Part shown: positions 12,518-27,200 of the stretch, in pieces
Position numbering within the stretch: position 1 is the first letter of the stretch
Layout of the letters: every line of letters begins with the position of its first letter
From: Lachnospiraceae bacterium
GTDB taxonomy: Bacteria > Bacillota > Clostridia > Lachnospirales > Lachnospiraceae
Assembly (NCBI GenBank): GCA_017938285.1
Contig: JAGBBW010000102.1
Location: 1-56,817, forward strand
Direction of reading: 5' to 3'
DNA: 56,817 bases
Translations under genes and position numbers: made by a program
The notes under the pieces: model-generated
Told to the model about the DNA's origin: nothing
Databases searched by the model: none
Seen by the model: only the letters and a program-made list of their open reading frames with translations

Positions 12518-14392
12518 TTAATCCGTACTTCCTTCGTGTCCGTACACCGGCAGCAGTTCTTCATAGTATACTTCTTCCCCTGCTTCTATTGCATAAAATC
12601 CTTCCAGTGCCATATCCTGTACTACCTCTGTCCGGGTAATTTCTTCCCCATTCAGGTCATACATGTAAAAAACCGTCTCTCCATCTTTTAACAGTGCCAA
12701 GGTAAAGATATAATTTTCATTGCCCGGAATTCCTGTGCACATCAGATAAGGAGTCATTTTCTGGACCGTATATATGGTTTCCCGATAAGTCTCCCCATTA
12801 TAACAGATGAATATTTCCTCCTGTTCTTCCGTTTCAGCAGCTGTCCTGTATACATACAGGGAATCCCTCTGGTCATCTGAAATATTCCGGTCAAACCAGA
12901 TTTCTTCCCAAGGAAAAAATGACACCGTATATCCCTGCTCCGGCGCATAGGTATATTCCTCATAAAAAAGTGCCGGTGCCTCATCAAACCAGATAGTGGC
13001 AGTCAGTGTCCCCGCTACATAAGGAGCAATATCATACGGACTGAAATAAAAAGTAATTCCCTGATACCCAAGGGTCCATACAAGATTTTCCGTTGTGTAA
13101 TCTTCCAGAACCTTTCCTTTTTCTGCAAAAAATACTTCTTCCGGATATGTTTCAAACAATCTCTCTTCAATCCTTACCAGAAGGTCTGTGGTATCCGGCA
13201 TAATATCATCCAGGGTATATTTTTCCCCGGAGACCGGATTAAGATTCCATCCCAGCGTGCAGTTGTTCGGATGCATTCCACCGGAATAATCATAATACTT
13301 CTGACAGATACTCAATATGTTTTCATCCGCGCGCTCCACACTGAGGCTGCAGTCATCATAATATCCTTCCCTGCCCTCTTCTCTGGCCCACTGCTCCAGT
13401 TTTTCCACCTCACTGGTCATAGCCTCTAACTCTTCCTCCGCCTTCTTTTCCAGCACATCTGCCAGCGCCGGATAAAGGGCAGCAGCTTCTTCTCCCAGAC
13501 GCAGGGTTATACGGCTTCCACTGCTTAACAGACGGTCCTCTTCCCACCGTTCTATCTGGTTTTCTGCCAGGAAAATACGTATGGTATCTACCATTCCTCT
13601 TTCTGCATCCATAAAATTTTCATATTGCGTAAAGTCATAAACGCCTTCCGCTGTCTGAAGAAATCCATCCCTTAAACTTAACGCCGGACAATATGCCAGA
13701 CATTCCCCGGTATTCTTTGAAGCCGTAACCATCAGATTCGGCATAATGTCACTGATATTTCCACGCAGCAGTACCGGACTTCCGTCACCTACGTGCAGCA
13801 GTTCCTTCCCTGCTTTTAACGAGTAATCTGTTTCGTCAAATACTGTTTCATTTACCGTAAGGGCAGTATTGTTGTCTGCCGGCACTACGGCATACCATTC
13901 CTCACCTGCTGCCAGAACAGACCTCTCTTCTGCCAGTTCTTCCAGAAACGGGTACTCTGCCAGAACTCCCGCTACCTCCAGCCATTCATAAAACTCTGTA
14001 AATTCTCCTGACTGACAACCCAGATAAGCTACCGCACACAGGCTTCCCTCTGCCTGGATTTCTTTCTGGAACTCTGCCAGTGCCTGTTCACTTCTGCTTG
14101 GAGTTTCTTCTTTCTGTACACTCTGGGTTGGTGACACCACCGTTGTTTCCGCAGCCTGTGTTATCTCCGGTTCTTCTGTTATCTCTGGCTGCTTTGTTAT
14201 TTCCGGCTGCTCTGTTATTTCCGGCTGCTCTGTTATTTCTGGCTGCTCTGTTATTCCCGGCTGCCCTGCCATTTCCGGAGCAGTGGAAACCACTGGAGTT
14301 ATTGCATTTTCTGTTGTCCCACCGTTCTGCCCGCAGCCGCTTAGAATCAACACCAGAAACATAGAAAATAATACTGTCATTCTTTTTTTCAT
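12518..14392 (-). CDS. Large lipoprotein with DUF3298-type domain
   Basis: The 624-residue protein has a lipoprotein signal (MKKRMTVLFSMFLVLILSGC), then a Pro/Glu/Thr linker of about six E-I-T-E-Q-P repeats, an unassigned middle domain, and a C-terminal region (EKLEQWAREE...YYDYSGGMHPNNCTLGWNLNPVSGEKYTLDDIM, then ...GITFYFSPYDIAPYVAGT) that matches DUF3298, the domain of RsiV-type anti-sigma factors and of secreted lysozyme-binding-like proteins. GGGGGGA precedes the ATG at 14392. It has no transmembrane helix beyond the signal, so it is not itself an anti-sigma factor; a surface-ligand role is inference. Confidence 0.8.
   Translation of the reverse strand: MKKRMTVLFSMFLVLILSGCGQNGGTTENAITPVVSTAPEMAGQPGITEQPEITEQPEITEQPEITKQPEITEEPEITQAAETTVVSPTQSVQKEETPSRSEQALAEFQKEIQAEGSLCAVAYLGCQSGEFTEFYEWLEVAGVLAEYPFLEELAEERSVLAAGEEWYAVVPADNNTALTVNETVFDETDYSLKAGKELLHVGDGSPVLLRGNISDIMPNLMVTASKNTGECLAYCPALSLRDGFLQTAEGVYDFTQYENFMDAERGMVDTIRIFLAENQIERWEEDRLLSSGSRITLRLGEEAAALYPALADVLEKKAEEELEAMTSEVEKLEQWAREEGREGYYDDCSLSVERADENILSICQKYYDYSGGMHPNNCTLGWNLNPVSGEKYTLDDIMPDTTDLLVRIEERLFETYPEEVFFAEKGKVLEDYTTENLVWTLGYQGITFYFSPYDIAPYVAGTLTATIWFDEAPALFYEEYTYAPEQGYTVSFFPWEEIWFDRNISDDQRDSLYVYRTAAETEEQEEIFICYNGETYRETIYTVQKMTPYLMCTGIPGNENYIFTLALLKDGETVFYMYDLNGEEITRTEVVQDMALEGFYAIEAGEEVYYEELLPVYGHEGSTD
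14158..14274. repeat. 18-bp coding tandem repeat
   Basis: Six to seven degenerate 18-bp units (core GGCTGCTCTGTTATTTCC on the plus strand) encode the hexapeptide repeat EITEQP of the lipoprotein's linker. The most alike neighbours differ by one or two bases, so copy number may vary by slippage. Confidence 0.8.
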
Positions 14393-14525
14393 AACATCCC
14401 CCCATTTTCGCTTCATTTTCATCTGGAATTTGTATCTTCCAATGGCAGACATTTCTGTCTGCCATTTTCATTTTACCACACAAATTGAAAAAAAGCTATC
14501 ACTCCCGGATGTTTTCCACATCGTG

Positions 14526-15311
14526 TCATCTGTGCCGCGTCTGGTAATCCCTCTCTATCTCTTCTTTCCACCCGCGTCCCAGTGCCTCAGACATCTGCAC
14601 GGAACTCTGACAGCTCCTTACCTTACACACTGCCCTGCTGATAACATCATAATTCAACTGCGTTCCTCTGCTGTCACATTCAAAATTTACAGCCCGGTCT
14701 TCCTGGATTCCAAAACGTCCGGCCACCTCAATCGCATCAATATTCGCTCCTAAAAACAGAAATTCCCAACCTATTTCTTTTTTCTGTTCTACCAGCTGCT
14801 TTACTCTGTCATAGCTGTAACGGCGGCTGGCATTCTCCATACCGTCTGTTGTAATTATAAACAATGTCTTGTGTGGCCGGTCCTCCTCTCTTGCATACTG
14901 ATGCACGGTTCCAATCCGCGAAATGGCATCTCCCAATGCATCCAGCAGTGCGGTACATCCTCTGACATAATACTGCTTCTCTGTCATCAGCGGAATTTTA
15001 TGTAACGAAACCCGGTCATGAATCAGTTCCTGATGGTCATCAAACAGCACTGTCGAAATTACTGCGTCCCCCTCTTCTTTTTTCTGCTTTTCTATCAGCG
15101 AATTAAAACCACCTATGGTATCGGCCTCCAACCCTCTCATGGAACCGCTGCGGTCCAGAAGAAACACAAGTTCTGTCAGATTTTTTTCGTTACTCCTTCT
15201 TTTTCTATCCTCTTCCTCCGTTCCAGTTTTGCTGTTCTGCTCCATGGTCTGTTCCTGCACTTTTTTCTGCTTTCTTCCTTGGAATACTCTCTGCATTTTT
15301 CTGTTTTTCAT
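14526..15311 (-). CDS. von Willebrand factor A (vWA) domain protein
   Basis: The 261-residue cytoplasmic protein has a basic, glutamine-rich N-terminus (about 50 residues) and one vWA domain. The metal-ion-dependent adhesion site is intact: DRSGSM (DxSxS), the Thr of the CTALLDALG loop and the Asp of FIITTDGMENAS. The sequence is closest to stand-alone vWA proteins (TerY/YfbK-like region) used as protein-binding switches. The start at 15311 has GGTGG 7 nt upstream; the 43-codon extension runs through the terminator at 15392-15422 and is not coding. The gene upstream encodes an HTH-like protein that may be its partner. Confidence 0.88.
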   Translation of the reverse strand: MKNRKMQRVFQGRKQKKVQEQTMEQNSKTGTEEEDRKRRSNEKNLTELVFLLDRSGSMRGLEADTIGGFNSLIEKQKKEEGDAVISTVLFDDHQELIHDRVSLHKIPLMTEKQYYVRGCTALLDALGDAISRIGTVHQYAREEDRPHKTLFIITTDGMENASRRYSYDRVKQLVEQKKEIGWEFLFLGANIDAIEVAGRFGIQEDRAVNFECDSRGTQLNYDVISRAVCKVRSCQSSVQMSEALGRGWKEEIERDYQTRHR

Positions 15312-15355
15312 ACGTTTCCACCTTTCCTCTGATACCTGATCAGTCATACACACTA

Positions 15356-15383
15356 TTTTGTTACTGTCCCTACTATAACAAAA
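15356..15383. promoter_or_regulatory. Inverted repeat before the vWA gene
   Basis: A perfect 8-bp inverted repeat, TTTTGTTA-N12-TAACAAAA, lies 45 bp before the vWA start in the only space available for its promoter. It resembles a regulator binding site; no clear -35/-10 pair could be fixed. Confidence 0.4.
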
Positions 15384-15391
15384 ACGAACAT

Positions 15392-15422
15392 AAAAAAAGT
15401 CGCCTGTAGGGCGACTTTTTTT
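15392..15422. terminator. Bidirectional terminator
   Basis: The stem GTCGCC / GGCGAC is flanked by A7 on the left and T7 on the right, so it can end transcription on both strands. It separates the HTH-like gene from the vWA gene. Confidence 0.85.
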
Positions 15423-15426
15423 ACAG

Positions 15427-15556
15427 TTCTGAGGAAGCACTGATTAATTCACTGCTTCCTCAGAAGCCTCCGGCGGATCGCACGAATTTGCAGTAGAAAT
15501 TGCAGCTTCGCTGCGCAAATTCAGCGGGGAAAACGCTTTAATCAGCGTTTCCCTTA
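15427..15556. repeat. AAACGCT hairpin repeat, long copy B
   Basis: Two parts. 15427-15465 is a hairpin with an 11-bp stem (CTGAGGAAGCA / TGCTTCCTCAG) around CTGATTAATTCAC. 15467-15556 runs from CCTCCGGCGGATCGCACGAA through GCAGCTTCGCTGCGCAAATT to AACGCTTTAATCAGCGTTTC and CCTTA; it matches 28063-28141 almost base for base. Its final TTA is the stop codon of the HTH-like gene. Confidence 0.85.
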
Positions 15557-16201
15557 TTTCTGACAGCAAAAATACGCTTCTTCTCCCAGTTCGTATAAAA
15601 TGCAGTCAACCGTATATAAATCATAGATGTTATGTTCCAGCGCATACTTCACAATCAAATCAAAACGGCTGCACGGCGAAAAGGCAAATCCGGCACTGGC
15701 CAGCAGATCCACAGTTTCATCTACGGACAGTTCCAGCCCCAGTGCAAAAGCAAACACCGTATGCTTGCTTGGCTGGTAGGCAGGATTACTGCGTATTTTG
15801 TGAAAGAGTTTTTTATCCTTTCCTGCTTTTTTATATGCCTGTGCATCCGTCCAGCCCCGCTCATCAATCAGGCGCAGCAGACGGGCCTGAAAAGATTCTC
15901 CCATATTCTGAAAAAGTTCTTCCAGGGAACGATTTCTCTGCTCCGGAACAACTGCCACGGAACGGAAAGAATCCGGGTAACCGTATGGCTTCTCCATACG
16001 GAATACTTCTGCATTCGTTGTTTTTTCTTCCCGTATATTCTCCTGTATATCTGCGGTCTTTTTTATCTGTATGAAGTCCCGTGTATCAGGTTCCGTCTGT
16101 TCATAATCACAAAAGTTTTTGTTAATGTATTCCCTGACACGGTGGACAAGAGCATTATCCGGTGAAACAGGAGTTTTCTTTTGCTGCCTGCCAAATAGCA
16201 T
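15554..16201 (-). CDS. Helical/HTH-like domain protein
   Basis: The 215-residue protein has a charged N-terminal third of low complexity and a conserved C-terminal all-helical domain (SFQARLLRLIDERGWTDAQAYKKAGKDKKLFHKIRSN, then PSKHTVFAFALGLELSVDETVDLLASAGFAFSP). The A-Y-K-x-A-x-x-D-x-x-x-F-x-K-I segment resembles an XRE helix-turn-helix. This domain recurs in Firmicutes as a stand-alone protein or fused to macro (Appr-1''-p) domains; that statement is from memory. It lies upstream of the vWA gene, on the same strand. The stop codon overlaps the hairpin repeat. Confidence 0.7.
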   Translation of the reverse strand: MLFGRQQKKTPVSPDNALVHRVREYINKNFCDYEQTEPDTRDFIQIKKTADIQENIREEKTTNAEVFRMEKPYGYPDSFRSVAVVPEQRNRSLEELFQNMGESFQARLLRLIDERGWTDAQAYKKAGKDKKLFHKIRSNPAYQPSKHTVFAFALGLELSVDETVDLLASAGFAFSPCSRFDLIVKYALEHNIYDLYTVDCILYELGEEAYFCCQK

Positions 16202-16312
16202 ACCTTTCTCCTTTGACCTTTTCCTGTATTTTTACACTGTCTCTGTCTTCTCTTTTCTGCAGAACAAAAGAGAGCAGCCTGTTATTTTTTACGAAATACA
16301 AATGAAAGCACT

Positions 16313-16346
16313 GCTAAGGAAACACTGATTAATTCATTGCTTCCCT
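16313..16346. repeat. AAACGCT hairpin repeat, copy C
   Basis: TAAGGAAACACTGATTAATT followed by CATTGCTTCCCTG is a close relative of the hairpin at 15427-15465. It lies 12 bp past the stop of the ABC-F gene. Confidence 0.6.
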
Positions 16347-16358
16347 GTATCTGATTTC

Positions 16359-17597
16359 TTACATTTCAATCACTTTTGTCGCAATCCGTTTTCCAAACTG
16401 CACATCCGGCTCCACTACCAGCATGGTTGGCTGGAAATCCAGTATCAGTTTTTCAATCTGCATTCTGGAAAATACATCAATATAATTTAACGGTTCATCC
16501 CAGATATAAAGGTGCGCCGGTTTTAACAGACTGGCTGCAAGAAGCACCTTTTTTTTCTTGCCTTCGGTATAATCTTCCATCGGCATTGCAAACTGCTCCC
16601 GGTCAAAATCCAGCTGGCGCAGCAGCGTACGGAGCAGGCCTTCGGAAATGCCCTGCCGTTCGCAGAACTCTGTAATAGAGCCTTTTAAAAATCCGGTATC
16701 CTGATTCACATAGGAAATCACCAGACCAGAGGCAGTCTCCAGAAGTCCTGATTCGTTGTATTTTAATTCACCCTTCATCTCTGTACTGTTTGCCAGAATG
16801 GCACGCATCAACGTAGACTTGCCGCTTCCGCTTTTGCCGCGCAACACCACACGTTCTCCTTTGGAAATCGTAAAATTCAGGTTGGAAAACACAGGATGAA
16901 TCGCATCCTTATACGTGAGTCCGTATTCTCTGGCTTCCACCAGCAGTTCTCTTTCCAGCTGTGCCAGAGCATCCCATCTGCTCTTATTTTCCCACCAGTC
17001 AGAAAAATTGCCCTTCTGCACTTCCATGGTGTTGCTGTTTAAAATCAGCATATGGTCTACACAGGCATCCAGCAGATCCCTGTCATGGGAAACTAATAAA
17101 AATCCCTTCTTCTGTTCCAGATAGTTCTTTACCAGTTCCCTGTCTTCCGCAGACATTTTATTCGTCGGGTCATCAATCAGCAGAAACTCATTTTCTCCGG
17201 CAAACAAAAGTGCCAGCATAATTTTTCTCTGTTCCGTTCTGCCTAAGGTAATAAACGGACTATATAACAGTTCCGCAGACAAATGCAGCAGCTCCATCTC
17301 GGTCGTCAGACGCCACAGCTCCGCTCCCGGTTTTAACTGCTTATAACTTTCTGCAAAAGGATATGCTTTCTGGGCATCTGTCATCGGATATGGAAAACAG
17401 TCAAAAGCTACCGGGGAACTGACCGTTCCGGTATACTCTTCTTTTCCCATCAGAATCCGCAAAAAGGTAGTCTTGCCTTCGCCGTTTCGTCCAATAAAGC
17501 CAATCTTCCAGTCAGTGTCAAATGCGAAGGTTACCTGTTCAAACATGTTGCCGCCTTCGTACTTAAGGGATACCTTCGATACATTAATCTGTGCCAT
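16359..17597 (-). CDS. ABC-F ATPase (Lsa-like) lacking the inter-domain arm
   Basis: The 412-residue protein has two ATP-binding cassettes and no membrane helices. Cassette 1 opens as in Lsa-type ribosome-protection proteins (INVSKVSLKYEGGNMFEQV, FDTDWKIGFIGRNGEGKTTF) and ends FLLIDDPTNKMS...LLVSHDRDLLDACVDHMLIL; the catalytic Glu of Walker B is Asp (LIDDPTN) and the signature loop is degenerate (TLGRTEQRK). Cassette 2 has GKSGSGKST, YTEGKKKK and IWDEPLN. Between WWENKSRWDALAQLERE and the second cassette only about 20 residues remain; family members carry about 80-100 there, the arm that reaches the ribosomal peptidyl centre. At about 412 instead of 490-540 residues, it is probably not a classical antibiotic-resistance protein. 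AGGAG lies 8 nt before the ATG, which overlaps the end of the preceding small frame. Confidence 0.82.
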   Translation of the reverse strand: MAQINVSKVSLKYEGGNMFEQVTFAFDTDWKIGFIGRNGEGKTTFLRILMGKEEYTGTVSSPVAFDCFPYPMTDAQKAYPFAESYKQLKPGAELWRLTTEMELLHLSAELLYSPFITLGRTEQRKIMLALLFAGENEFLLIDDPTNKMSAEDRELVKNYLEQKKGFLLVSHDRDLLDACVDHMLILNSNTMEVQKGNFSDWWENKSRWDALAQLERELLVEAREYGLTYKDAIHPVFSNLNFTISKGERVVLRGKSGSGKSTLMRAILANSTEMKGELKYNESGLLETASGLVISYVNQDTGFLKGSITEFCERQGISEGLLRTLLRQLDFDREQFAMPMEDYTEGKKKKVLLAASLLKPAHLYIWDEPLNYIDVFSRMQIEKLILDFQPTMLVVEPDVQFGKRIATKVIEM

Positions 17598-17900
17598 AGA
17601 CAATCTCCTCTCCATCCACGTATTTGCGTTCCATCTTATGACGCAGTTTCCGGACTTCCACTGTATCAAACACAATGGAATTTTCTTATCCGGATAAACC
17701 ATAACGCTGTCACCCTGGTGAAAACGCTGCTCCTTCCGGCGAATCTCTTTCTTTTTCTGAACCTTTGGAACAGACATTCTCTCACTCTTATTTTCGCTTA
17801 TTTCGACGGATTTTGCAAGCATAACTTTCTGTATTTCAAATTCTTTTGAAGACTCTCCACAGGCGGCCTTTGCTGCCCATAAAAGCATTGCTTCGGACAT
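17584..17900 (-). pseudogene. Small gene with a single-base frameshift
   Basis: From ATG 17900 (AGGG about 8 nt upstream, 9 bp after the fused-transporter stop) a frame reads MSEAMLLWAAKAACGESSKE through a basic region to GDSVMVYPDK. At about 17688 the protein-like signal switches to another frame, continuing NSIVFDTVEVRKLRHKMERK and ending at TAA 17584-17586, inside the first codons of the ABC-F gene. Restoring one A in the AAGAAAATTCC run joins the two into a protein of about 105 residues. The tail faintly recalls the C-terminal end of some MutS-related proteins, from memory only. Either a recent inactivation, a sequencing error, or a recoding site. Confidence 0.5.
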
Positions 17901-17909
17901 TTCCAGTCC

Positions 17910-19304
17910 CTACACCCGTACTATCCGGCAGCCGAAATACTCCGCCTCTGTTTCTTCGTGGGTTACATAAAGCACCGTCCGCCCCTGCATTTTTTCCTTC
18001 ATAAATTCCATGACAGCAGTCTTGGTACGATCATCCAGTCCTTTTAACGGCTCATCCAGCAGAAGTATCCGGCGGTCCGCCAGCAGCGCCCTGGCAATCG
18101 CCACGCGGCGCTTCATACCACCGCTTAAAACCCCGGCTTTCTTTTCCCCACAGCCTGCCAGTCCCAGACATCCAAGCAGGTTTTCTATCTGTCCCAGCTG
18201 TTCCGGTGTCCGGCATACCATGGCAAGATTATGATATACACTCACCTTTTCACACAGACGGTCTTCCTGAAACACTACCGCCATTGCCTGTTCATCTGCT
18301 TCTATCCGGCCGCAGTCCGGCGTTTCCAGCTTCAACAGCATACGGAGCAGGGTAGTCTTTCCTTTGCCGGAAGATCCCATTAACGCCACTGCTTCGCCAC
18401 CCGATGCCTTCATGGAAAAATCCACACAGACAATCACATCATCAAAATGCTTTGTTACACTGTCCATCCAGAATCCCGGTGACTCTGCCACAACAGGTTC
18501 TGCCTGCGGCACCAGTTTCCTGTCCCATCTGCCCTCCGTTACTTTCTCTGCTGCCAACAGACGGTATTCCATCAGACGCACCATGCCCAGGATCCCCAGT
18601 TCAAACAACAGACTAAGGCAGATAATCACCGCTGTCCAGGCAAACAGTTCCGGCATTTCCAGATAAATTTTCGCCTGATACAGCTGGTTTCCTATCGTAT
18701 TGCGCACCACACCGATTACTTCTGCCGCAATACCGGATTTCCATGCCACTCCGGCAGCTACGGAACAGGCGGAAAGAAAGTAAGGTATCAGCTCTGGCAG
18801 ATAAATAAAACGAAGGGTATGATACCAGCGCACCTGGTAGACTTTTGCCATCTCCAGCAGTTTCTGGTCTGCTGCCTCGATTCCCTTCCTGACATTCGAA
18901 TACATCAACGGAAATACCATGAAAAACGAAACCAATACGGAAAGTTTCCCTGCATCCAGCCAGAACAACGCCAGAATCGTAAAAGAAGCCACCGGAACCG
19001 CCTGCATCATGCGCACCGGCAGACCAAAAAACAATCTTAAAAACAGAACCCTGGAAGAAACTGCTGCCAGAAGTGCTCCCAGAATACAGGCTCCGCCTGC
19101 TCCCAGAACTATATTTCCAAGGGAATTTAAAATACTCTGGTAAAATTCCGGAGATGCCATCAGCTTCCGCAAGGCATTCCAGACTTCCCACGGAGACGGC
19201 AGAAACATTGTCTGGTCTATTTTCCGGGACATGATCTGCCAGAACATGACCCACAACACCACCGACACCATGCCATATCCGATTTTCTTCCACTGCTTGT
19301 TCAT
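17910..19304 (-). CDS. Fused ABC permease-ATPase (SsuC-SsuB type)
   Basis: The 464-residue protein joins two subunits that are normally separate. Residues 1-250 are a BPD-type permease with about six helices and the EAA-like loop AKVYQVRWYHTLRFIYLPELIP, as in SsuC/TauC/NrtB. Residues 275-464 are a compact ATPase: Walker A GSSGKGKTT, Q-loop VFQEDRL, signature LSGGMKRRVAIARALL, Walker B ILLLDEPLKGLD and switch YVTHEE. Family transporters import nitrate, sulfonates, taurine, bicarbonate or thiamine precursors. It follows the binding lipoprotein by 21 bp (GAGGAAACATTC before ATG), so the two genes form a complete importer. Confidence 0.92.
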   Translation of the reverse strand: MNKQWKKIGYGMVSVVLWVMFWQIMSRKIDQTMFLPSPWEVWNALRKLMASPEFYQSILNSLGNIVLGAGGACILGALLAAVSSRVLFLRLFFGLPVRMMQAVPVASFTILALFWLDAGKLSVLVSFFMVFPLMYSNVRKGIEAADQKLLEMAKVYQVRWYHTLRFIYLPELIPYFLSACSVAAGVAWKSGIAAEVIGVVRNTIGNQLYQAKIYLEMPELFAWTAVIICLSLLFELGILGMVRLMEYRLLAAEKVTEGRWDRKLVPQAEPVVAESPGFWMDSVTKHFDDVIVCVDFSMKASGGEAVALMGSSGKGKTTLLRMLLKLETPDCGRIEADEQAMAVVFQEDRLCEKVSVYHNLAMVCRTPEQLGQIENLLGCLGLAGCGEKKAGVLSGGMKRRVAIARALLADRRILLLDEPLKGLDDRTKTAVMEFMKEKMQGRTVLYVTHEETEAEYFGCRIVRV

Positions 19305-19325
19305 GAATGTTTCCTCTGTCCGTTT

Positions 19326-20303
19326 TTATTCTGCCATATAAAACAGTTCTGCTCCCGGCATAATGCCGCCTACCGCTGCCGGTTTCTGGTCATACAGAAC
19401 CTGCAGATATGCCAGTACTTTTTTCTGCATTTCCTCTCCATCAATATAAGTCACATTGCAATAAGGAATTGCTGTTTTGGCAATGGCCGCCTTAAAAATA
19501 TTAAAATGTTCCAGTTGTTCTGCTGTCTCTTCTACCTGTTCCTTGGCGTATGCCACAGACGCTTCGTATTCTTCCAGAAACTTTGCAAATGCAGCCTCCT
19601 GCTCCTGAATATAAGAGTTTCTTGCCACAAGAACTCCGGTAACTACCGTACTGTCCTCATTTCGCTTTTCCCACTCTTCTGTCACACTCAACGCAATCCG
19701 CAGCGAAGCATTCTGCTTCATCGCCGCCGTTACATACGGCTGCGGAAGCATAGCCACGGCGTCTGTCGCTTCTGCCAGCAGTGCCGCCACCTCTGCCGCC
19801 TCCGACTTATATTCAATAGTCACATCCTTATCCGGGTCAATTCCTGCCGAAGATAACAGGTAGCGGAGGGTAAATTCCGGTGTCGTTCCCTGGCCGGTGG
19901 AATAAATGGTCTTTCCACGCAGATCTTCCACACACTGGATTTCTGTCCCTGTTTCCACCAGATACAGAACCCCCAGCGTATTCACAGCCACCGTCACGAT
20001 TTCTCCTTCTGACTTCTGATGCAGCACAGCCGCCAGATTACATGGTACACAGGCTGCATCCAGATTTCCTTTTAACAGTTCTGCTGCAATCTCATCTCCC
20101 GTACCATATACACTAAACGTATAATTATTTGCTGCTGTTCCTGCTTCCATATCAGACATTACTTTTACCATGCCAATCGCCGTCGGTCCTGTCATAACCG
20201 CAATCTTCATATCCGCAGGCTCTGCATCTTCCTTTTGTCCACAGCCGGCACACCCAAATGCCAGCATAACCGTCATAAACAGTAACCATATATTCCGTTT
20301 CAT
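19326..20303 (-). CDS. SsuA/NMT1-like ABC substrate-binding lipoprotein
   Basis: The 325-residue protein has a lipobox (AFGCAGC after a 20-residue signal) and an NMT1/SsuA-type periplasmic-binding fold: KIAVMTGPTAIGMVKVM, LDAACVPCNLAAVL, LRGKTIYSTGQGTTPEFTLRYLLSSAGIDP and AMLPQPYVTAAM. The ligand cannot be read from the sequence; the fold binds sulfonates, pyrimidine precursors, nitrate and small organic acids. The start at 20303 has GGAG 8 nt upstream. It lies between the hydrogenase-like chemoreceptor and the fused permease-ATPase, so ligand uptake and redox sensing may be linked. Confidence 0.9.
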   Translation of the reverse strand: MKRNIWLLFMTVMLAFGCAGCGQKEDAEPADMKIAVMTGPTAIGMVKVMSDMEAGTAANNYTFSVYGTGDEIAAELLKGNLDAACVPCNLAAVLHQKSEGEIVTVAVNTLGVLYLVETGTEIQCVEDLRGKTIYSTGQGTTPEFTLRYLLSSAGIDPDKDVTIEYKSEAAEVAALLAEATDAVAMLPQPYVTAAMKQNASLRIALSVTEEWEKRNEDSTVVTGVLVARNSYIQEQEAAFAKFLEEYEASVAYAKEQVEETAEQLEHFNIFKAAIAKTAIPYCNVTYIDGEEMQKKVLAYLQVLYDQKPAAVGGIMPGAELFYMAE

Positions 20304-20349
20304 ATTCTGTCTCCTCTCACGTCGTAATCTTTCCTCACCCAAAGGTAAA

Positions 20350-20403
20350 GCTGCTGTAACACGGTTCCGGCCGCCTGTTGCAGCCAGACCCTTTACAGCA
20401 GCC
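20350..20403. other. Hairpin in the 162-bp gap before the binding-protein gene
   Basis: GCTGCTGTAA pairs with TTACAGCAGC across a GC-rich loop. It lies in the longest spacer of the operon and may moderate expression of the transporter relative to the chemoreceptor. No known riboswitch core (TPP, SAM, cobalamin, Moco) was recognised. Confidence 0.35.
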
Positions 20404-20465
20404 CTGCTTATTATACGAAATCATTTTTCCATTGACCCAGCCGCCGGATCGTCTGGTCATGCACT

Positions 20466-22349
20466 TTAAATACGCTTTACTGCATCCTGGATTTCATCCG
20501 ACAGACTCCGGATACTGTCACTTTGTGCAGAAACTTCTTCTGTCGTTGCAGCAATGCTTGTAATACGGTCTCCCATCGCCTGAATCTGTTCCAGCAGATT
20601 CTTGATGCCCTCAATGCTTGCCGTAATTCTCGGAACCGTGTCTTCTGCCTGCTGGTTATTTTCTTCAATCAGGCTCTTGGTGGACGCTGCCAGATTACGG
20701 ATTTGCCCGGCAACTACCGAGAAACCTTTCCCGTTTTCTCCTGCTCTGGCTGCCTCAATGCTGGCATTCAACGATAACAGATTCGTCTTATTGGCAATCC
20801 CCGCAATATCATCATTACTGCCTTTATAAACTTCCACAAACTCGTAGAAAAATGCCAGGGATTCTTTGATACGTTCACATTCTTCCGTCAGTTCATTTAC
20901 CACTCTGGTAATTTCACTGGTATCATCGGCAATCATGGTATTTGCCTCCGATAATGTCATTACACCTTCATTCAGTGCACCAAACTGACCGATAATTTCC
21001 TGCAGATGCTCATTGTGAACTTCCTGCTCCCGTAAATTCTTTTCATGAAGTTCTTCAATCTGTGCACGTTCAATTTCTGCAAGTCCCTTAATATAGTGGA
21101 TACAGTTTTCTTTGACATTTACACCATTATGAATCGCAGCCACCATCTCCATACAGGTAGCATAACCGCAGCAGGAACAGTCAATATGCTTTGATTCGTC
21201 CGTTGTCTTGTTCATATCGCGGAAAATGGCACTCTGCTCCTGTATCGTCGGCACCTTTACTATTACCTTTTTATTTGTATAGGCTCTGGCAAAATCTTTT
21301 ATATCCAGTGCCTTAAACTGCTCACAGAAATACTCCCATCTCTTTTCCGGCGGAATCGTACTGTTCCACGGATTGTGAACCCCTCTCTTTTCTTTTTCCG
21401 TAGCCACCAGCTTATTCATTTCATTAATGGCCAGTTCCACATCCGTATCATCTATGGTTTCATCCGTTGCCGTACCACGGATACAGCCCTTCTGGCAGTT
21501 CAGGATATCCACCATAAACGGAAGCCGGCTTCTGCGTTCCGCATATTCCTTTAAAAATTTATACGCTTCCTCTTCTCCTTCTACCTGAAGTACTGCCGCC
21601 TGGTTTCCAAGGAAGAAATGCACACATTCCTTTAAACCGCCCGGTTTCGGGTATCTGGCACCAAGACCATAGGTGGACTCTTCCTCTGCCTCTGCTGCAT
21701 TCTGGTACTTTGTTCCGACTGCCTCCATCAGCTTTTTGAAAGTAACATTATACTTTACATAGCCTCCGGTATTTTTATCGTTTATCTCCATGCGCTTTGC
21801 AATACACGGACTTAAAAATACCAGTTCCTCGGATGCCTTTTTATATTTCTTTAAATAAATGGCCTCTGCCATCATCGGACTATGTAACGGCACCAGCATT
21901 GGAATCAGTTCCGGCTGGTATTTCTCAATATAATTCACAATTGCAGGGCATGGCTGGCTGATTAAACCCTGCTGTCCCGTTTCTTTCAGGTAACTGATGT
22001 ACGCCCATGTCGTAATATCCGCACCAAAGCTGACACTGTAAATGTGGGCAACCCCCAGGGATTTCAGATAACCATACACTTTTTTATAAATCTTTGGATA
22101 GTTTGCAATAAAAGCAGGTGCTACAATAACCGAAAATTTCTTTCCGTTCCGCAGATCCTCAAGGAACCGCCATGTATCATCTTCAAAATCTCTGGCAGCA
22201 TGATGACAGTGGTCAAAACATGCCCCGCACTGGATACATTTTTCTTCATCCACTTCAATTCTTCCATTATGGGCTACATTTGCTGTCAACGCCGGACAAC
22301 TGCGGATACATTTGTTACACCCGACACACTTTTCGTTTGTGAATACCAT
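20466..22349 (-). CDS. [FeFe]-hydrogenase-like Fe-S protein fused to chemotaxis signalling domain
   Basis: The 627-residue soluble protein has, in order: two [4Fe-4S] ferredoxin motifs (C8-C11-C14-C18 and C38-C41-C44-C48); an [FeFe]-hydrogenase large-subunit-like domain (about 70-350); a further Fe-S domain ([14 protein letters not shown]..., about 385-415); a coiled coil; and a methyl-accepting signalling tip ([20 protein letters not shown]). H-cluster loops are present in altered form: SQPCP (C134) replaces [14 protein letters not shown] (C182) replaces MPCxxK, and [12 protein letters not shown] (C285, C289) replaces ExMxCxGGCxxG. The four cluster-binding cysteines survive, but the proton-relay cysteine is Pro. 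That fits a sensory, not catalytic, hydrogenase-type domain. No membrane helix is seen. GGAGG lies 5 nt before the ATG. Confidence 0.9.
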
Positions 22350-22431
22350 AGTCCCCTCCAAAATATTTTCGCCATAGTAACTATCTTACTGGTTGCAAAA
22401 CAACGATTCTTTTTACAATATATTCTCTTTC

Positions 22432-22460
22432 ATTTTACCAAATTCCATAAACAATTTCAA
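22432..22460 (-). promoter_or_regulatory. Promoter of the hydrogenase-like chemoreceptor operon
   Basis: On the minus strand TTGAAA (22455-22460) and TAAAAT (22432-22437) have a 17-bp spacer, about 80 nt before the start codon. A short inverted repeat, GTAA-CTATC-TTAC, follows near 22377-22389. Confidence 0.65.
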
Positions 22461-22532
22461 GTCAGTACGATATTTCTTTACCACATTATATTATAATTCC
22501 TGTAATTATGCTCCCCGTATATCATCCCTCGT

Positions 22533-23969
22533 CTACAGCACCCAGATACGTACATTTTCCGGAAATGCCTGTTTACTTACCGCTGTTCCGGCACCTTTTA
22601 AACATATCCTCTGCAGTGCCGGACAGTTTTCTGCCATTCCTGCCTCCAGACGTTCTATTTTTTCGGGTATAATCAGTTCTTTTAACCGGTCACATTCTTT
22701 TATCACCGGTGCATGCAGAATCAGTCCGGACCGGTTTGGAAACTCAATCTCTGTCACTCCGGCATGATAAAATGCATCCGTATCGATTTCCTGTACACTG
22801 TCCGGAAGTTTTATCCGGTATACTTCGCTCAGATAAAATGCATGGGAGGAAATCCGCCGGATGGTCTCCGGCAGGTTTGCTTCTAATACCATGCTGTCAT
22901 AATAGGCAGAAATCAGAATCCCATTTACCACCACGCAGCTGCTCTTTTTCCGTTCTCCGGACAGCCATGCCGTTCCTTCAAAAGTCTTTTTACCGATATA
23001 GGAAACACTGGCCGGAAACCTGATTTCCCGGAGATTCTCCATTCCATAACAGGCCCTTTCCCCAATGTATTCCACGCCTTCCGGAAATTCCAGACACTCC
23101 AGAAGCTCCCGTTTCAGCGAACCGGAAAAAGCTTCCGGTGCAATGACTTTTACCCCCTGCGGCACCATCACATGGGCACACCCGATTTCACACCGCTCCA
23201 GAACCCCCTCCCGGATACAGAATTCCGTATTGGCATTAAGTTCTGTTTCTTTCTGTGGCCGGCTCTCCGGTTTCCATGAGGACTTTTTCTGAAGCTCCTC
23301 CACCTGCTCCTGCCTGTCCTGCCCTGCCACAGGCTCCACCGGAACTTCTTTTTCTTTTTTCTGCCCGCTTTTTTTCTTCCCAAGTCCCTGAAACAACTCG
23401 TATTTCGCCTGTCTTTTCCGTTCTTCTTCCTCTTTTCTCTGTCTGGTATCCCGAAGAACTGCCGCCTCAATCTGCTTGTGTTTCAGACAGGGACAGTTCA
23501 AAAAAGCATCCTCTCTTACAATCACATAGGGGGAAGCAAGCTCCACATCCTTCAGCCGGATACAGTTTTCAAACGCCCGGCTTTCTATTTTTCTTATGGA
23601 AGCCGGCAGCACTGCCCGCTCCAGACTGGTACAGTTTCTGAACAACCCCGGTTCCAGAACTTTCAGCAGGGAATCAGACGCAATTTCCACACACCGCAGA
23701 CTCTCCATTCCTGCAAAGGACAGACGGTCAATTTTTTTTACTGCTGCCGGCAGAACCAGTGTCTCCATCCGGTTCTGCAGACGCACATTCAAAAACGCCT
23801 GGCGCCGTATTTCCCGCACCGATTCAGGAAGCAGTACCGTTTCACACAACAGCTCCACATCTTTTAACACACCATGATATATAAGAAAACGGTTTCCCTC
23901 ATATTCCTGATAGTCCAGTTCTTCTTTTTCCACAGCTTCCTCATTTGAATTTCTTTCCTCCTGATCCAA
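22533..23969 (-). CDS. Intracellular BspA-type leucine-rich-repeat protein
   Basis: The 478-residue protein starts with TTG (AAGGAGG 7 nt upstream). It has two blocks of LRR_5 (BspA-type) repeats, at about 30-165 and 255-478, with motifs such as LPASIRKIESRAFENC and FPEGVEYIGERACYGMENLREI. They are separated by a highly charged, K/E/Q-rich linker (about 168-240). It has no signal peptide, cell-wall anchor or membrane helix, whereas most BspA-type proteins are secreted. A cytoplasmic scaffold role is inference. It is divergent from carB and appears monocistronic. Confidence 0.88.
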   Translation of the reverse strand: MDQEERNSNEEAVEKEELDYQEYEGNRFLIYHGVLKDVELLCETVLLPESVREIRRQAFLNVRLQNRMETLVLPAAVKKIDRLSFAGMESLRCVEIASDSLLKVLEPGLFRNCTSLERAVLPASIRKIESRAFENCIRLKDVELASPYVIVREDAFLNCPCLKHKQIEAAVLRDTRQRKEEEERKRQAKYELFQGLGKKKSGQKKEKEVPVEPVAGQDRQEQVEELQKKSSWKPESRPQKETELNANTEFCIREGVLERCEIGCAHVMVPQGVKVIAPEAFSGSLKRELLECLEFPEGVEYIGERACYGMENLREIRFPASVSYIGKKTFEGTAWLSGERKKSSCVVVNGILISAYYDSMVLEANLPETIRRISSHAFYLSEVYRIKLPDSVQEIDTDAFYHAGVTEIEFPNRSGLILHAPVIKECDRLKELIIPEKIERLEAGMAENCPALQRICLKGAGTAVSKQAFPENVRIWVL

Positions 23970-24109
23970 TGCACAGCCTCCTTCCTGTTTTGCATCTAAA
24001 AAAGCGTATCCTTAGCTTCATTATATCAATTTTTCCCCTTTTATACAATGTTACCAAAGAAAAATTCCAAATCATAAAAAATTTTTCTCTCTGCTTCGAT
24101 AAATTCCTC

Positions 24110-24137
24110 TTGTGCTTTTTCATATTTTCGTTATAAT
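24110..24137 (+). promoter_or_regulatory. carB promoter
   Basis: TTGTGC (24110-24115) and TATAAT (24132-24137), 16 bp apart, sit about 70 bp before the carB start. The leader holds a short inverted repeat (TGGAA-cacgt-TTTCCA); no PyrR-type attenuator terminator was seen. Confidence 0.65.
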
Positions 24138-24207
24138 ATTATATTGAGAAAAAATGAAAATTTCCATGGAACACGTTTTCCATTGGATAAACGAGGAGGA
24201 TACATCA

Positions 24208-27200
24208 ATGCCAAAACGCGAAGACATTAATAAAGTTCTTATCATTGGTTCCGGTCCTATCATTATCGGACAGGCATGTGAGTTTGACTACTCCGGTACA
24301 CAGGCTTGTAAAGCATTAAAGAGCCTTGGTTATGAAATCGTACTGGTAAACTCCAACCCGGCTACTATCATGACTGACCCGGAAACTGCGGATGTAACTT
24401 ATATCGAGCCACTGAATGTGGAAAGACTCGAACAGATCATCGCCAAAGAACGTCCGGATGCCCTGCTTCCAAACCTTGGCGGTCAGTCCGGCTTAAACCT
24501 TTGCTCCGAGTTGAATCAGGCAGGTATTCTTGATAAATATAATGTAAAGGTTATCGGTGTCCAGGTTGATGCCATCGAACGCGGAGAAGACCGTATCGAA
24601 TTCAAAAAAGCAATGAATGCCCTTGGTATCGAAATGGCAAGAAGTGAAGTTGCCTACACAGTAGAAGAAGCCCTTGCTATCGCTGATACTCTTGGCTACC
24701 CTGTAGTACTTCGTCCTGCTTACACCATGGGCGGTGCCGGCGGCGGCTTAGTTTACAACAAAGAAGAATTAAGCACTGTCTGTGCAAGAGGTTTACAGGC
24801 TTCCTTAGTTGGACAGGTTCTCGTGGAAGAATCCATCCTTGGCTGGGAAGAGTTAGAAGTTGAAGTTGTTCGTGACGCAGATAACAACATGATTACCGTC
24901 TGCTTCATTGAAAATATTGACCCACTGGGTGTTCATACCGGTGACTCCTTCTGTTCCGCTCCAATGCTTACCATTTCCAAGGAGTGCCAGGACAGATTAA
25001 AAGAACAGGCATTTAAGATCGTAGAATCTGTTGAGGTTATCGGTGGTACCAACGTACAGTTCGCACACGATCCTGTGTCCGACCGTATCATTGTTATCGA
25101 AATCAACCCTCGTACTTCCCGTTCCTCCGCATTAGCAAGTAAGGCAACCGGTTTCCCAATCGCCCTGGTTTCCGCACTGCTGGCAGCAGGTCTGACCTTA
25201 AAGGACATTCCATGCGGCAAGTACGGCACACTGGATAAATACGTTCCGGACGGCGATTATGTCGTAATCAAGTTCGCACGCTGGGCGTTCGAAAAGTTCA
25301 AGGGCGTGGAAGACAAGCTTGGTACCCAGATGCGCGCCGTTGGTGAAGTCATGAGTATCGGTAAGACCTACAAGGAAGCATTCCAGAAGGCTATCCGTTC
25401 CTTAGAAACCGGCCGTTATGGTCTTGGTTATGCCAAGAACTTCAACTCCTTAACCAAGGACGAATTATTAAAGCTTTTAATCACCCCTTCCAGCGAGCGT
25501 CATTTCATTATGTATGAAGCACTCAGAAAGGGTGCCACCGTTGATGAAATCTTCAACATTACCAAGGTAAAGCACTTCTTCATCAAGCAGATGCAGGAAT
25601 TAGTAGAAGAAGAAGAGGCTCTTGCCGCAAATAAGGGCAAACTTCCGGCAGATGACGCTTTGGTTGCTGCCAAGAAGAATGGTTTCTCCGACAAGTACTT
25701 AAGCCAGATTTTAGAGATTCCGGAGGCTGACATCCGTAACCGCCGTATCGAGCTTGGCTGTGAAGAAGCATGGGAAGGCGTACATGTAAGCGGCACCCAG
25801 GACAGAGAATACTACTACTCTACCTACAATGCCGAGGACAAGAGCACCGTAACAAACAATAAGAAGATTATGATTCTTGGCGGCGGTCCAAACCGTATCG
25901 GCCAGGGTATCGAATTTGACTACTGCTGCGTACATGCTTCCCTCGCCTTAAAGAAGATGGGCTTCGAAACCATTATTGTAAACTGTAATCCGGAAACCGT
26001 ATCCACCGACTACGATACTTCCGATAAGTTATACTTCGAGCCTCTCACACTGGAAGATGTATTAAGCATTTATAAGAAGGAACAGCCGCTTGGCGTTATC
26101 GCACAGTTCGGCGGTCAGACTCCACTGAATCTGGCAGCAGACTTAGAGAAGAACGGCGTCAAGATTCTCGGTACTTCCCCAGCCGTTATCGACCTGGCAG
26201 AAGACCGTGACTTATTCCGTGAAATGATGGATAAGTTAGAAATTCCTATGCCGGAATCCGGTATGGCTACTACTGTAGAGGAAGCGCTGGAAATCGCCCA
26301 CAAGATTGGCTACCCAACCATGGTTCGTCCGTCCTACGTACTTGGCGGCCGCGGCATGGAAGTAGTCTACGATGACGAAAGCATGATTAACTACATGAAT
26401 GCTGCTGTTGGTGTCACACCTGACCGTCCAATCCTCATCGACCGTTTCTTAAATCACGCACTGGAATGTGAAGCTGACGCTATCAGCGATGGTACCCACG
26501 CTTTCGTTCCTGCGGTTATGGAACATATCGAGCTTGCCGGCGTACACTCCGGTGACTCTGCCTGCATTCTTCCTTCCGTACATATCTCCGAAGAGAATGT
26601 GGCTACGATTAAGGAATACACAAGAAAGATTGCAGAAGAAATGCACGTTAAGGGCTTAATGAATATGCAGTATGCTATCGAAAACGGCAAGGTATATGTG
26701 CTGGAAGCAAATCCAAGAGCCTCCCGTACCGTACCTCTGGTTTCCAAGGTTTGTAACATCCGCATGGTGCCACTGGCAACAGAAATCATCACTTCTGAGC
26801 TGACCGGCAACCCATCCCCTGTTCCAGACTTAAAGGAACAGTACATTCCAAACTACGGTGTTAAGGAAGCTGTTTTCCCATTCAACATGTTCCCTGAGGT
26901 TGACCCAATCTTAGGTCCGGAAATGCGTTCCACCGGTGAAGTATTAGGTCTGTCTGCTTCCTATGGTGAAGCCTTCTACAAGGCACAGGAAGCAACCCAG
27001 TCCAAGCTTCCGTTAGAAGGAACGGTTCTCATCTCTGTGAACAGAAAGGATAAGGAAGAAGTAGTTGAGGTAGCAAGAAGCCTTGCCAATGACGGTTTTG
27101 AAGTACTGGCTACCGGTGGCACCTGTGACCTGTTAAATGCCAACGGAGTTCAGGCAACCAGAGTCAACAAGCTCTCTGAAGGCCGTCCGAACATCCTTGA

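Follow-up and report, generated by a model that had tools for sequence, protein, structure and literature searches.

A hydrogenase-fold chemoreceptor encoded beside a candidate [FeFe]-hydrogenase-associated importer in a Lachnospiraceae bacterium

The stretch of DNA analyzed here, referred to as the window, comprises 56,817 nucleotides from a Lachnospiraceae bacterium (assembly GCA_017938285.1, contig JAGBBW010000102.1). Three genes at positions 17910 to 22349, all on the minus strand, encode in this order a hydrogenase-like chemoreceptor, a substrate-binding lipoprotein and a fused permease-ATPase, the last two forming an ATP-binding cassette (ABC) importer. We describe here the receptor and its relatives, and an importer that recurs beside [FeFe]-hydrogenase systems, mostly in genomes that lack the maturase HydF. 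The features of the locus are as follows (MCP, methyl-accepting chemotaxis protein).

20466..22349, minus strand, ATG at 22349: C2-type chemoreceptor of 627 amino acids with two [4Fe-4S] ferredoxin motifs, an H-domain, a C-terminal [4Fe-4S] domain and an MCP signalling domain
22194..22346, minus strand: the two ferredoxin-type [4Fe-4S] motifs, C8/C11/C14/C18 and C38/C41/C44/C48 (Fer4-type Pfam matches within residues 2-52)
21474..22142, minus strand: H-domain PF02906 (Fe_hyd_lg_C), residues 70-292 (115.5 bits, cut-off 22.1)
21099..21185, minus strand: C-terminal FeS domain PF04060, residues 389-417 (22.3 bits, just below the cut-off of 23)
20472..20909, minus strand: MCP signalling domain with its hairpin tip (MCPsignal PF00015, residues 481-626; 78.8 bits, cut-off 34.6)
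19326..20303, minus strand: SsuA/NMT1-like substrate-binding lipoprotein of the hydrogenase-associated importer, from profile matches
17910..19304, minus strand: fused permease-ATPase of the importer (BPD_transp_1 and ABC_tran)
20347..20405, minus strand: strong hairpin between the receptor and binding-protein genes (169-nt region, -55.9 kcal/mol, z -3.6), with no T tract
22432..22460, minus strand: promoter-like site 5' of the receptor gene, TTGAAA-17-TAAAAT with TG before the second hexamer (consensus match only)

The receptor gene is separated from the lipoprotein gene by 162 bp, a gap that contains the strong hairpin, and 21 bp lie between the lipoprotein and permease genes. The receptor and importer genes are likely co-transcribed, the first junction being predicted only. 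Matches to the promoter consensus number 11 across the window, compared with 8.1 expected.

Architecture and relatives of the receptor

Pfam searches bear out the layout that an earlier note, made from the sequence alone, had described for this locus, namely, a protein with two ferredoxin clusters, a hydrogenase-like domain, a further Fe-S domain (PF04060, just under its cut-off) and a chemotaxis tip, followed by two genes, one for a binding lipoprotein and one for a permease fused to an ATPase. The residues named there also agree, with the same numbering: the H-cluster ligands C134, C182, C285 and C289 are all cysteines, and the relay position is occupied by P133. By motif, P133, S180 and K185 stand at the CpI sites C299 (relay), M353 and K358, respectively, with site names taken in part from PMC8163306. 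The C-terminal cluster motif reads C391-x2-C394-x4-C399-x16-C416. Among 30 homologues, all eight cysteines of the ferredoxin motifs are invariant, and residues E532 and R535 of the MCP tip are kept in at least 90%. An AlphaFold2 (AF2) model built from the 30-sequence alignment had a mean predicted local distance difference test (pLDDT) score of 79.5, and its best Foldseek matches were solved [FeFe]-hydrogenases (CbA5H, E value of 6.5e-16, template modelling score of 0.47 by query length). The receptor scores below the cut-offs for both the group B1 monomeric hydrogenases (TIGR04105, 162.5 bits, cut-off 450) and the group A enzymes (TIGR02512, 82.8 bits, cut-off 405.95).

HydDB lists a group C2 of [FeFe]-hydrogenases as "Chemotactic (putative)," with an "undetermined" role and a proposed function in H2 sensing via methyl-accepting chemotaxis proteins (PMC5037454). 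The receptor architecture fits this group, as in both cases a hydrogenase-type protein is tied to methyl-accepting chemotaxis, and the receptor probably belongs to this known but uncharacterised class; the assignment is by agreement with the HydDB table text. In contrast to what we report below, the excerpted description of group C2 has no importer or maturase pattern (PMC5037454). Features of group D include loss of the relay cysteine, a hydroxyl residue at M353 and Cx2Cx4Cx16C spacing (Land et al., PMC8163306). TamHydS from Thermoanaerobacter mathranii (group D, M2e) shares with the receptor two N-terminal clusters, the loss of the relay cysteine, Ser at M353 and the C-terminal Cx2Cx4Cx16C motif, but it is without a signalling domain, whereas the receptor has its MCP domain (PMC8163306; PMC13104023). 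Measured against group D (M2e), the receptor therefore has the characteristic residues and motif (P133, S180 and C391/C394/C399/C416) and departs from it in carrying a further signalling domain. Apo-TamHydS becomes active when supplied with a synthetic [2Fe] complex (PMC8163306), and its C-terminal cluster gave no response to H2 (PMC13104023). TmHydS (group C, M2f) is likewise a putative sensory hydrogenase with a C-terminal cluster; it carries a PAS domain where the window receptor has an MCP tip (PMC13104023). Some relatives of the receptor (L185-L188, L196, L204 and L206) lie in open frames of approximately 870 to 1340 amino acids, and therefore, other input or output parts may exist.

CheA, maturases and hydrogenases in receptor genomes

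A survey of 299 genomes of the family, representing 298 genera, placed the receptor in 63 of them (relative of the hydrogenase part at an E value under 1e-70). CheA is present in 60 of these 63 genomes, compared with 94 of the 236 others (p 6e-17), which supports the cytosolic hydrogenase-like chemoreceptor proposed in the earlier note. HydF (E value under 1e-60, with the borderline genome G085, at 2.6e-65, counted as positive) shows no such tie to the receptor, being found in 35 of 63 receptor genomes and 125 of 236 others (p 0.78). The maturase survey covered HydF and HydG, with HydG checked in 96 of the 139 HydF-less genomes. HydG is over its cut-off in none of the 28 HydF-less receptor genomes and is present in 30 of the 35 HydF-positive ones. 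In 68 further HydF-less genomes it was over the cut-off in two, with the HydF-positive genome G001 serving as the positive control, and among nine close named relatives of the receptor (L024-L032), it was over the cut-off in four and not in five. Among eight clostridial acetogens, five are reported to have no detectable HydG, all with HydE and HydF (PMC9431212).

The genome of the window, G000, is 3.2 Mb in size and 86.7% complete, and it has two CheA proteins (PF02895 matches). It gave 39 matches to the receptor, nearly all of them to the MCP part, and exactly two PF02906 proteins, the window receptor and a paralogue that is 44% identical over the full length. In this 87% complete draft, neither HydF (best match 99.9 of 325.55 bits) nor HydG (best match 180.3 of 312.15 bits) was found over its cut-off.

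Hydrogenases of other groups were scored as A/B at an E value under 1e-35 and as group A at under 1e-80; "B-like" denotes E values between about 1e-35 and 1e-52, and of the few such proteins inspected, three scored over the TIGR04105 cut-off. Group A hydrogenases (TIGR02512) are found in 73 of the 139 HydF-less genomes, and B-like proteins alone are found in another 37. HydG was also missing from 70 of the 72 HydF-less group A genomes that were checked for it (13 plus 59 genomes). The motifs of one such hydrogenase (L262) are as expected, TSCCPGW, MPCTAKK and MACPGGC, and those of a second (L286) are the same except for Ile at M353. In this family, enzymes expected to need the H-cluster thus persist without HydF and HydG. 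A group A-type hydrogenase at 11298-13070 of L303, from the HydF-less, importer-bearing draft genome G279, reads TSCSPGW, with Ser at the C300 ligand.

Some C2 receptors are encoded within maturase runs, in the orders C2-hydE-hydG-hydF (L041), hydE-hydG-hydF-C2 (L143), C2-hydE-hydG with a next frame that is HydF-like by eye (L042) and C2-hydE (L043). No degeneration of the H-domain pocket was seen in hosts that lack HydF, where its residues are conserved to the same extent as in HydF-positive hosts. In hosts without and with HydF, respectively, K185 is kept in 33/36 and 40/42 rows, S180 in 34/36 and 39/42 and P133 in 33/36 and 40/42, and each of the four H-cluster cysteines is kept in 35-36 of 36 and 41-42 of 42. 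This comparison used 78 rows, some genomes giving more than one; the distant hydrogenase rows G202, G272 and G110 were excluded beforehand, and the distant row G249 was counted among the HydF-less. Clustering of receptor neighbours for a functional clue gave its largest conserved set in one clade, amino-acid-biosynthesis-like by eye, with no functional link.

Distribution and gene linkage of the importer

An orthologue of the binding protein at an E value under 1e-40 was taken as presence of the importer, which gave 119 of the 299 genomes. The importer is found in 89 of 139 HydF-less compared with 30 of 160 HydF-positive genomes (odds ratio 7.7, p 7e-16). When only genomes with an A/B hydrogenase are considered, these numbers become 83 of 110 and 30 of 154 (odds ratio 12.7), and for receptor genomes they are 20 of 28 and 4 of 35. 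HydF-less genomes have it in 59 of 73 cases when a group A enzyme is present, in 24 of 37 with B-like proteins only and in 6 of 29 with neither. The association holds in genomes with CheA (odds ratio 9.4) and without it (6.4), and CheA itself, used as a control gene, gave odds ratios of 1.02 against HydF and 0.88 against the binding protein.

Lineage structure was addressed with a CheA tree, for which 60 genomes were fetched and G060 (wrong frame), G267 and G077 (both long rows) were dropped. Across the 57 receptor genomes that remained, at least 11 changes of HydF and 17 of the binding protein are counted on the tree. For 8 independent supported-branch pairs differing in HydF, the importer differed in the opposite direction in 6.0, in the same direction in 0 and was equal in 2 (median p 0.031); in the reverse test, with 10 pairs differing in the importer, HydF was opposite in 5.5, the same in 0.0 and equal in 4.5 (median p 0.0625). 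The tree supports repeated swaps between HydF and the importer, with few pairs.

Gene linkage was examined in the 60 importer loci most similar to the window protein, which together with the window and three more loci cover 64 of the 119 importer genomes. In 11 of the 60, the binding-protein gene is closely preceded, on its own strand, by a gene for TM1266, a protein of approximately 80 residues (TIGR03959 hyd_TM1266, a family named "iron-only hydrogenase system putative regulator"), which starts 265 to 669 bp ahead of the binding-protein match. Two copies were scored, at 115.3 (L275) and 104.6 bits (cut-off 60.8). All 11 loci are from HydF-less genomes, one of which, G288, shares its genus with the genome of the window, and none of the 18 HydF-positive loci is so arranged (p 0.024). 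TM1266 is found further off in two more loci, L281 (HydF-less) and L292 (HydF positive); no match to it was found in the window.

A hydrogenase-type gene lies within about 7 kb of the importer in 13 of the 64 loci, the window included. These neighbours are C2 receptors (the window, L145, L156 and L182), group C-like proteins whose tails resemble PAS domains by eye, together with group B enzymes (L283, L284 and L287), a group C-like fragment (L301), group B enzymes (L295 and L298) and group A enzymes (L262, L286 and L303). The 12 cases among the 63 non-window loci compare with about 1.3 expected, a rough figure that assumes four hydrogenase genes in 2.9 Mb. In L286, genes for the binding protein, permease, ATPase, NuoE, a NuoF-like protein and HydA (A6) follow each other on the same strand, either overlapping or no more than 50 bp apart, and the host, G218, is 99% complete with both HydF and HydG below their cut-offs. 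In L298, from the HydF-less genome G013, a group B hydrogenase gene overlaps that for the binding protein by 4 bp, and a fused permease-ATPase gene follows. L182, from G221, repeats the order of the window, with the receptor followed after 12 bp by the binding protein and then by the fused permease-ATPase, the proteins being 36 to 48% identical to those of the window. Viewed from the receptor side, an importer is nearby in 4 of 161 locus rows, which include at least three non-C2 rows and some genomes twice.

The importer's recurring partner is therefore the [FeFe]-hydrogenase system generally (TM1266 and groups A, B, C and C2), mostly in HydF-less genomes, and not this receptor. The link to an importer that the earlier note had drawn is real, and its suggestion that a precursor may be imported is supported too. 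The idea of a new sensing module finds no support in the form given there, since the receptor class is already in HydDB and the receptor-importer pair is not fixed; the new part is the importer. The conservation of neighbours in relatives on which that idea depended is in part lacking, as the nearest orthologues show no importer in the DNA covered, although the order of the window is found again in G221. The idea persists in a changed form, with the hydrogenase system in the place of this receptor. The HydE-HydG-HydF system and the importer have gene neighbours in common, namely, TM1266 and C2 receptors, but that system makes the [2Fe] subsite, whereas the importer occurs mostly where HydF and HydG are missing; the two are for the most part mutually exclusive. 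Nine loci (L246, L247, L248, L250, L252, L253, L255, L257 and L270) have genes close to the importer, mostly upstream and on the same strand, that by eye resemble those for a membrane-bound histidine kinase and its response regulator type of partner.

The binding lipoprotein scores 71.5 bits against the SsuA family (TIGR01728, SsuA_fam), below the cut-off of 163.5, and also resembles NMT1 and Phosphonate-bd in profile searches. A cysteine near its C terminus is invariant in 64 of 64 sequences. The nearest solved relative is PDB 3hn0, presumably from Parabacteroides and named a nitrate transport protein; it shares the GTTP, Cys and AVGG motifs with the lipoprotein, and its name may be wrong. 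The importer is thus like SsuA/NMT1-type importers and 3hn0 in its broad binding-protein family and in having one permease and one ATPase, and it differs from them in its score below the SsuA_fam cut-off, the fused permease-ATPase, the invariant cysteine and the linkage to hydrogenase genes. A structure prediction for the lipoprotein from its single sequence was not usable (pLDDT 36.6). A relative of the binding protein in G085, the genome with the weak HydF match, has six in-frame stops.

Roles proposed for the receptor and importer

In light of these data, our preferred reading, which we put forward tentatively, is that the locus encodes a chemoreceptor for H2, or possibly for redox state, together with an importer that stands in for HydE, HydF and HydG and most likely brings in the [2Fe] precursor or a piece of it. 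The cytosolic, hydrogenase-fold receptor would hold an H-cluster and signal through its C-terminal [4Fe-4S] domain and helical hairpin to CheA, so that movement responds to H2 or to the redox state reported by the receptor's clusters. The importer would belong to the [FeFe]-hydrogenase system and take the place of the three maturases, most likely carrying a precursor of the [2Fe] subsite, finished or half finished, or an essential part of it. Apo-receptor and apo-hydrogenases may then take up the imported [2Fe] unit and be completed without the cell making the cofactor. Vitamin salvage importers such as BtuFCD occur where a cofactor user is present and its biosynthesis is absent, and the likeness to BtuFCD-type importers is one of logic only. 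We know of no importer for an H-cluster precursor. Searches of open-access papers brought up no description of TM1266 beside an ABC importer, of gut hydrogenases without HydEFG or of H-cluster precursor uptake, a negative that is weak given the restriction to open access. An importer for salvage should be present with cofactor users in genomes without HydEFG and be gene linked to them, and this is seen as a trend, with exceptions both ways.

Several observations weigh against this reading. The swap of the importer for HydF is not strict, because 27 of 110 HydF-less genomes with a hydrogenase have no importer, while 30 of 160 HydF-positive genomes do; 8 of 28 HydF-less receptor genomes are also without it. 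The single-contig genome G282, one of those 27 and with a B-like hydrogenase signal and no match to HydF, HydG or the importer, is a counter-example to salvage by this importer. The tree control has only 8 pairs, and a first, quick CheA tree with all 60 rows gave a median p of 0.0625 both ways. Linkage to a hydrogenase-type gene does not differ significantly by HydF (8 of 42 HydF-less and 1 of 18 HydF-positive loci; p 0.26), and in the HydF-positive locus L292, TM1266 is found downstream of the binding-protein gene, at a distance of 2.3 kb. The closest receptor orthologues (L024-L030, L134 and L135) have no importer in their sequenced surroundings, some of which are short contigs. The family that the binding lipoprotein resembles has known members carrying sulfonates, nitrate or pyrimidines. 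Lastly, the maturases of G000 could be missing by chance, because the genome is an 87% complete draft.

It is conceivable, if rather unlikely, that the receptor has no [2Fe] subsite and is a redox receptor (for ferredoxin or O2) with four [4Fe-4S] clusters on a hydrogenase fold, the importer being incidental. G000 has neither maturase over its cut-off and no PF02906 proteins other than two such receptors; all 28 HydF-less receptor genomes, out of 63, also lack HydG, and two of the maturase-less ones, G233 (100% complete) and G255 (99%), are also without an A/B hydrogenase signal. The H2-unresponsive C-terminal cluster of TamHydS (PMC13104023) is consistent with this as well. However, the pocket (K185, S180 and the four ligands) is equally kept with and without HydF, some receptors lie in hydE-hydG-hydF runs and group A/B hydrogenases persist in genomes without HydF and HydG. 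Because of that persistence, the absence of maturases is by itself not proof of an empty site; with group A hydrogenases in 73 of 139 HydF-less genomes, the rule that no maturase means no H-cluster was dropped as a firm inference and is kept as part of this alternative.

About as doubtful is the possibility that the importer serves H2 metabolism in HydEFG-less lineages by carrying some ordinary substrate (bicarbonate or another anion, a C1 acid or the precursor of a vitamin), with the cofactor coming from an unrecognised maturation route. The resemblance of the binding protein to SsuA_fam, NMT1, Phosphonate-bd and 3hn0 fits with this, as does a gene that is CO-dehydrogenase-like by eye on the same 15-kb stretch in L295; alone, however, it leaves unexplained why the importer is rare in genomes with HydF (30/160) or without both HydF and a hydrogenase (6/29). 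A chance arrangement, in which a known C2 receptor has an unrelated ABC importer as its neighbour by accident and the genome-wide association reflects lineage structure, appears improbable and is already strained by the linkage data. It would agree with the different neighbours of the nearest orthologues, the rarity of the pair among the locus rows and the few pairs in the tree control, but not with the recurrence of the three-gene order in G221 at 36 to 48% identity, the excess of hydrogenase-type neighbours over the rough expectation, the presence of TM1266 in 11 of 60 loci or the lack of association between CheA and HydF.

If the preferred reading of an importer replacing HydEFG is extended to the family, it might be, although we consider this wider claim doubtful, that many gut Lachnospiraceae are H-cluster auxotrophs that retain [FeFe]-hydrogenases and receptors of hydrogenase type, have dropped HydE, HydF and HydG and use a dedicated ABC importer, often under TM1266, to acquire the [2Fe] subsite or a precursor that neighbouring organisms release, and that the importer of the window serves an H2-sensing chemoreceptor. 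Group A genomes without HydF and HydG imply another route to the H-cluster, uptake of the cofactor or proteins that work without it. As a candidate, the importer is concrete and open to testing, and if the proposal is true, it would alter the way in which genomes are used to infer hydrogen turnover in gut communities. The receptor belongs with a class listed in HydDB with an undetermined role; the survey links it to CheA throughout a bacterial family, and its neighbouring genes suggest a connection with the supply of the cofactor.

A few further features lie near the three genes. An Rfam search of positions 14000-26000 (E values up to 1) found no riboswitch family and gave two sub-threshold small RNA matches, neither near the importer; one, on the plus strand at 15350-15428, is to STnc230 (42.8 of 50 bits, E value of 0.001), which is odd for the lineage. 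An ABC-F protein closest to the Lsa family (445.3 bits, cut-off 750) is encoded on the minus strand at 16359-17900, beginning 9 bp past the stop of the permease-ATPase gene, and no close copy of it was seen beside other receptors in the receptor locus rows. Further along the same strand, at 12518-14452, is a gene for a DUF3298 protein with a PEITEQ-like repeat run near its start.

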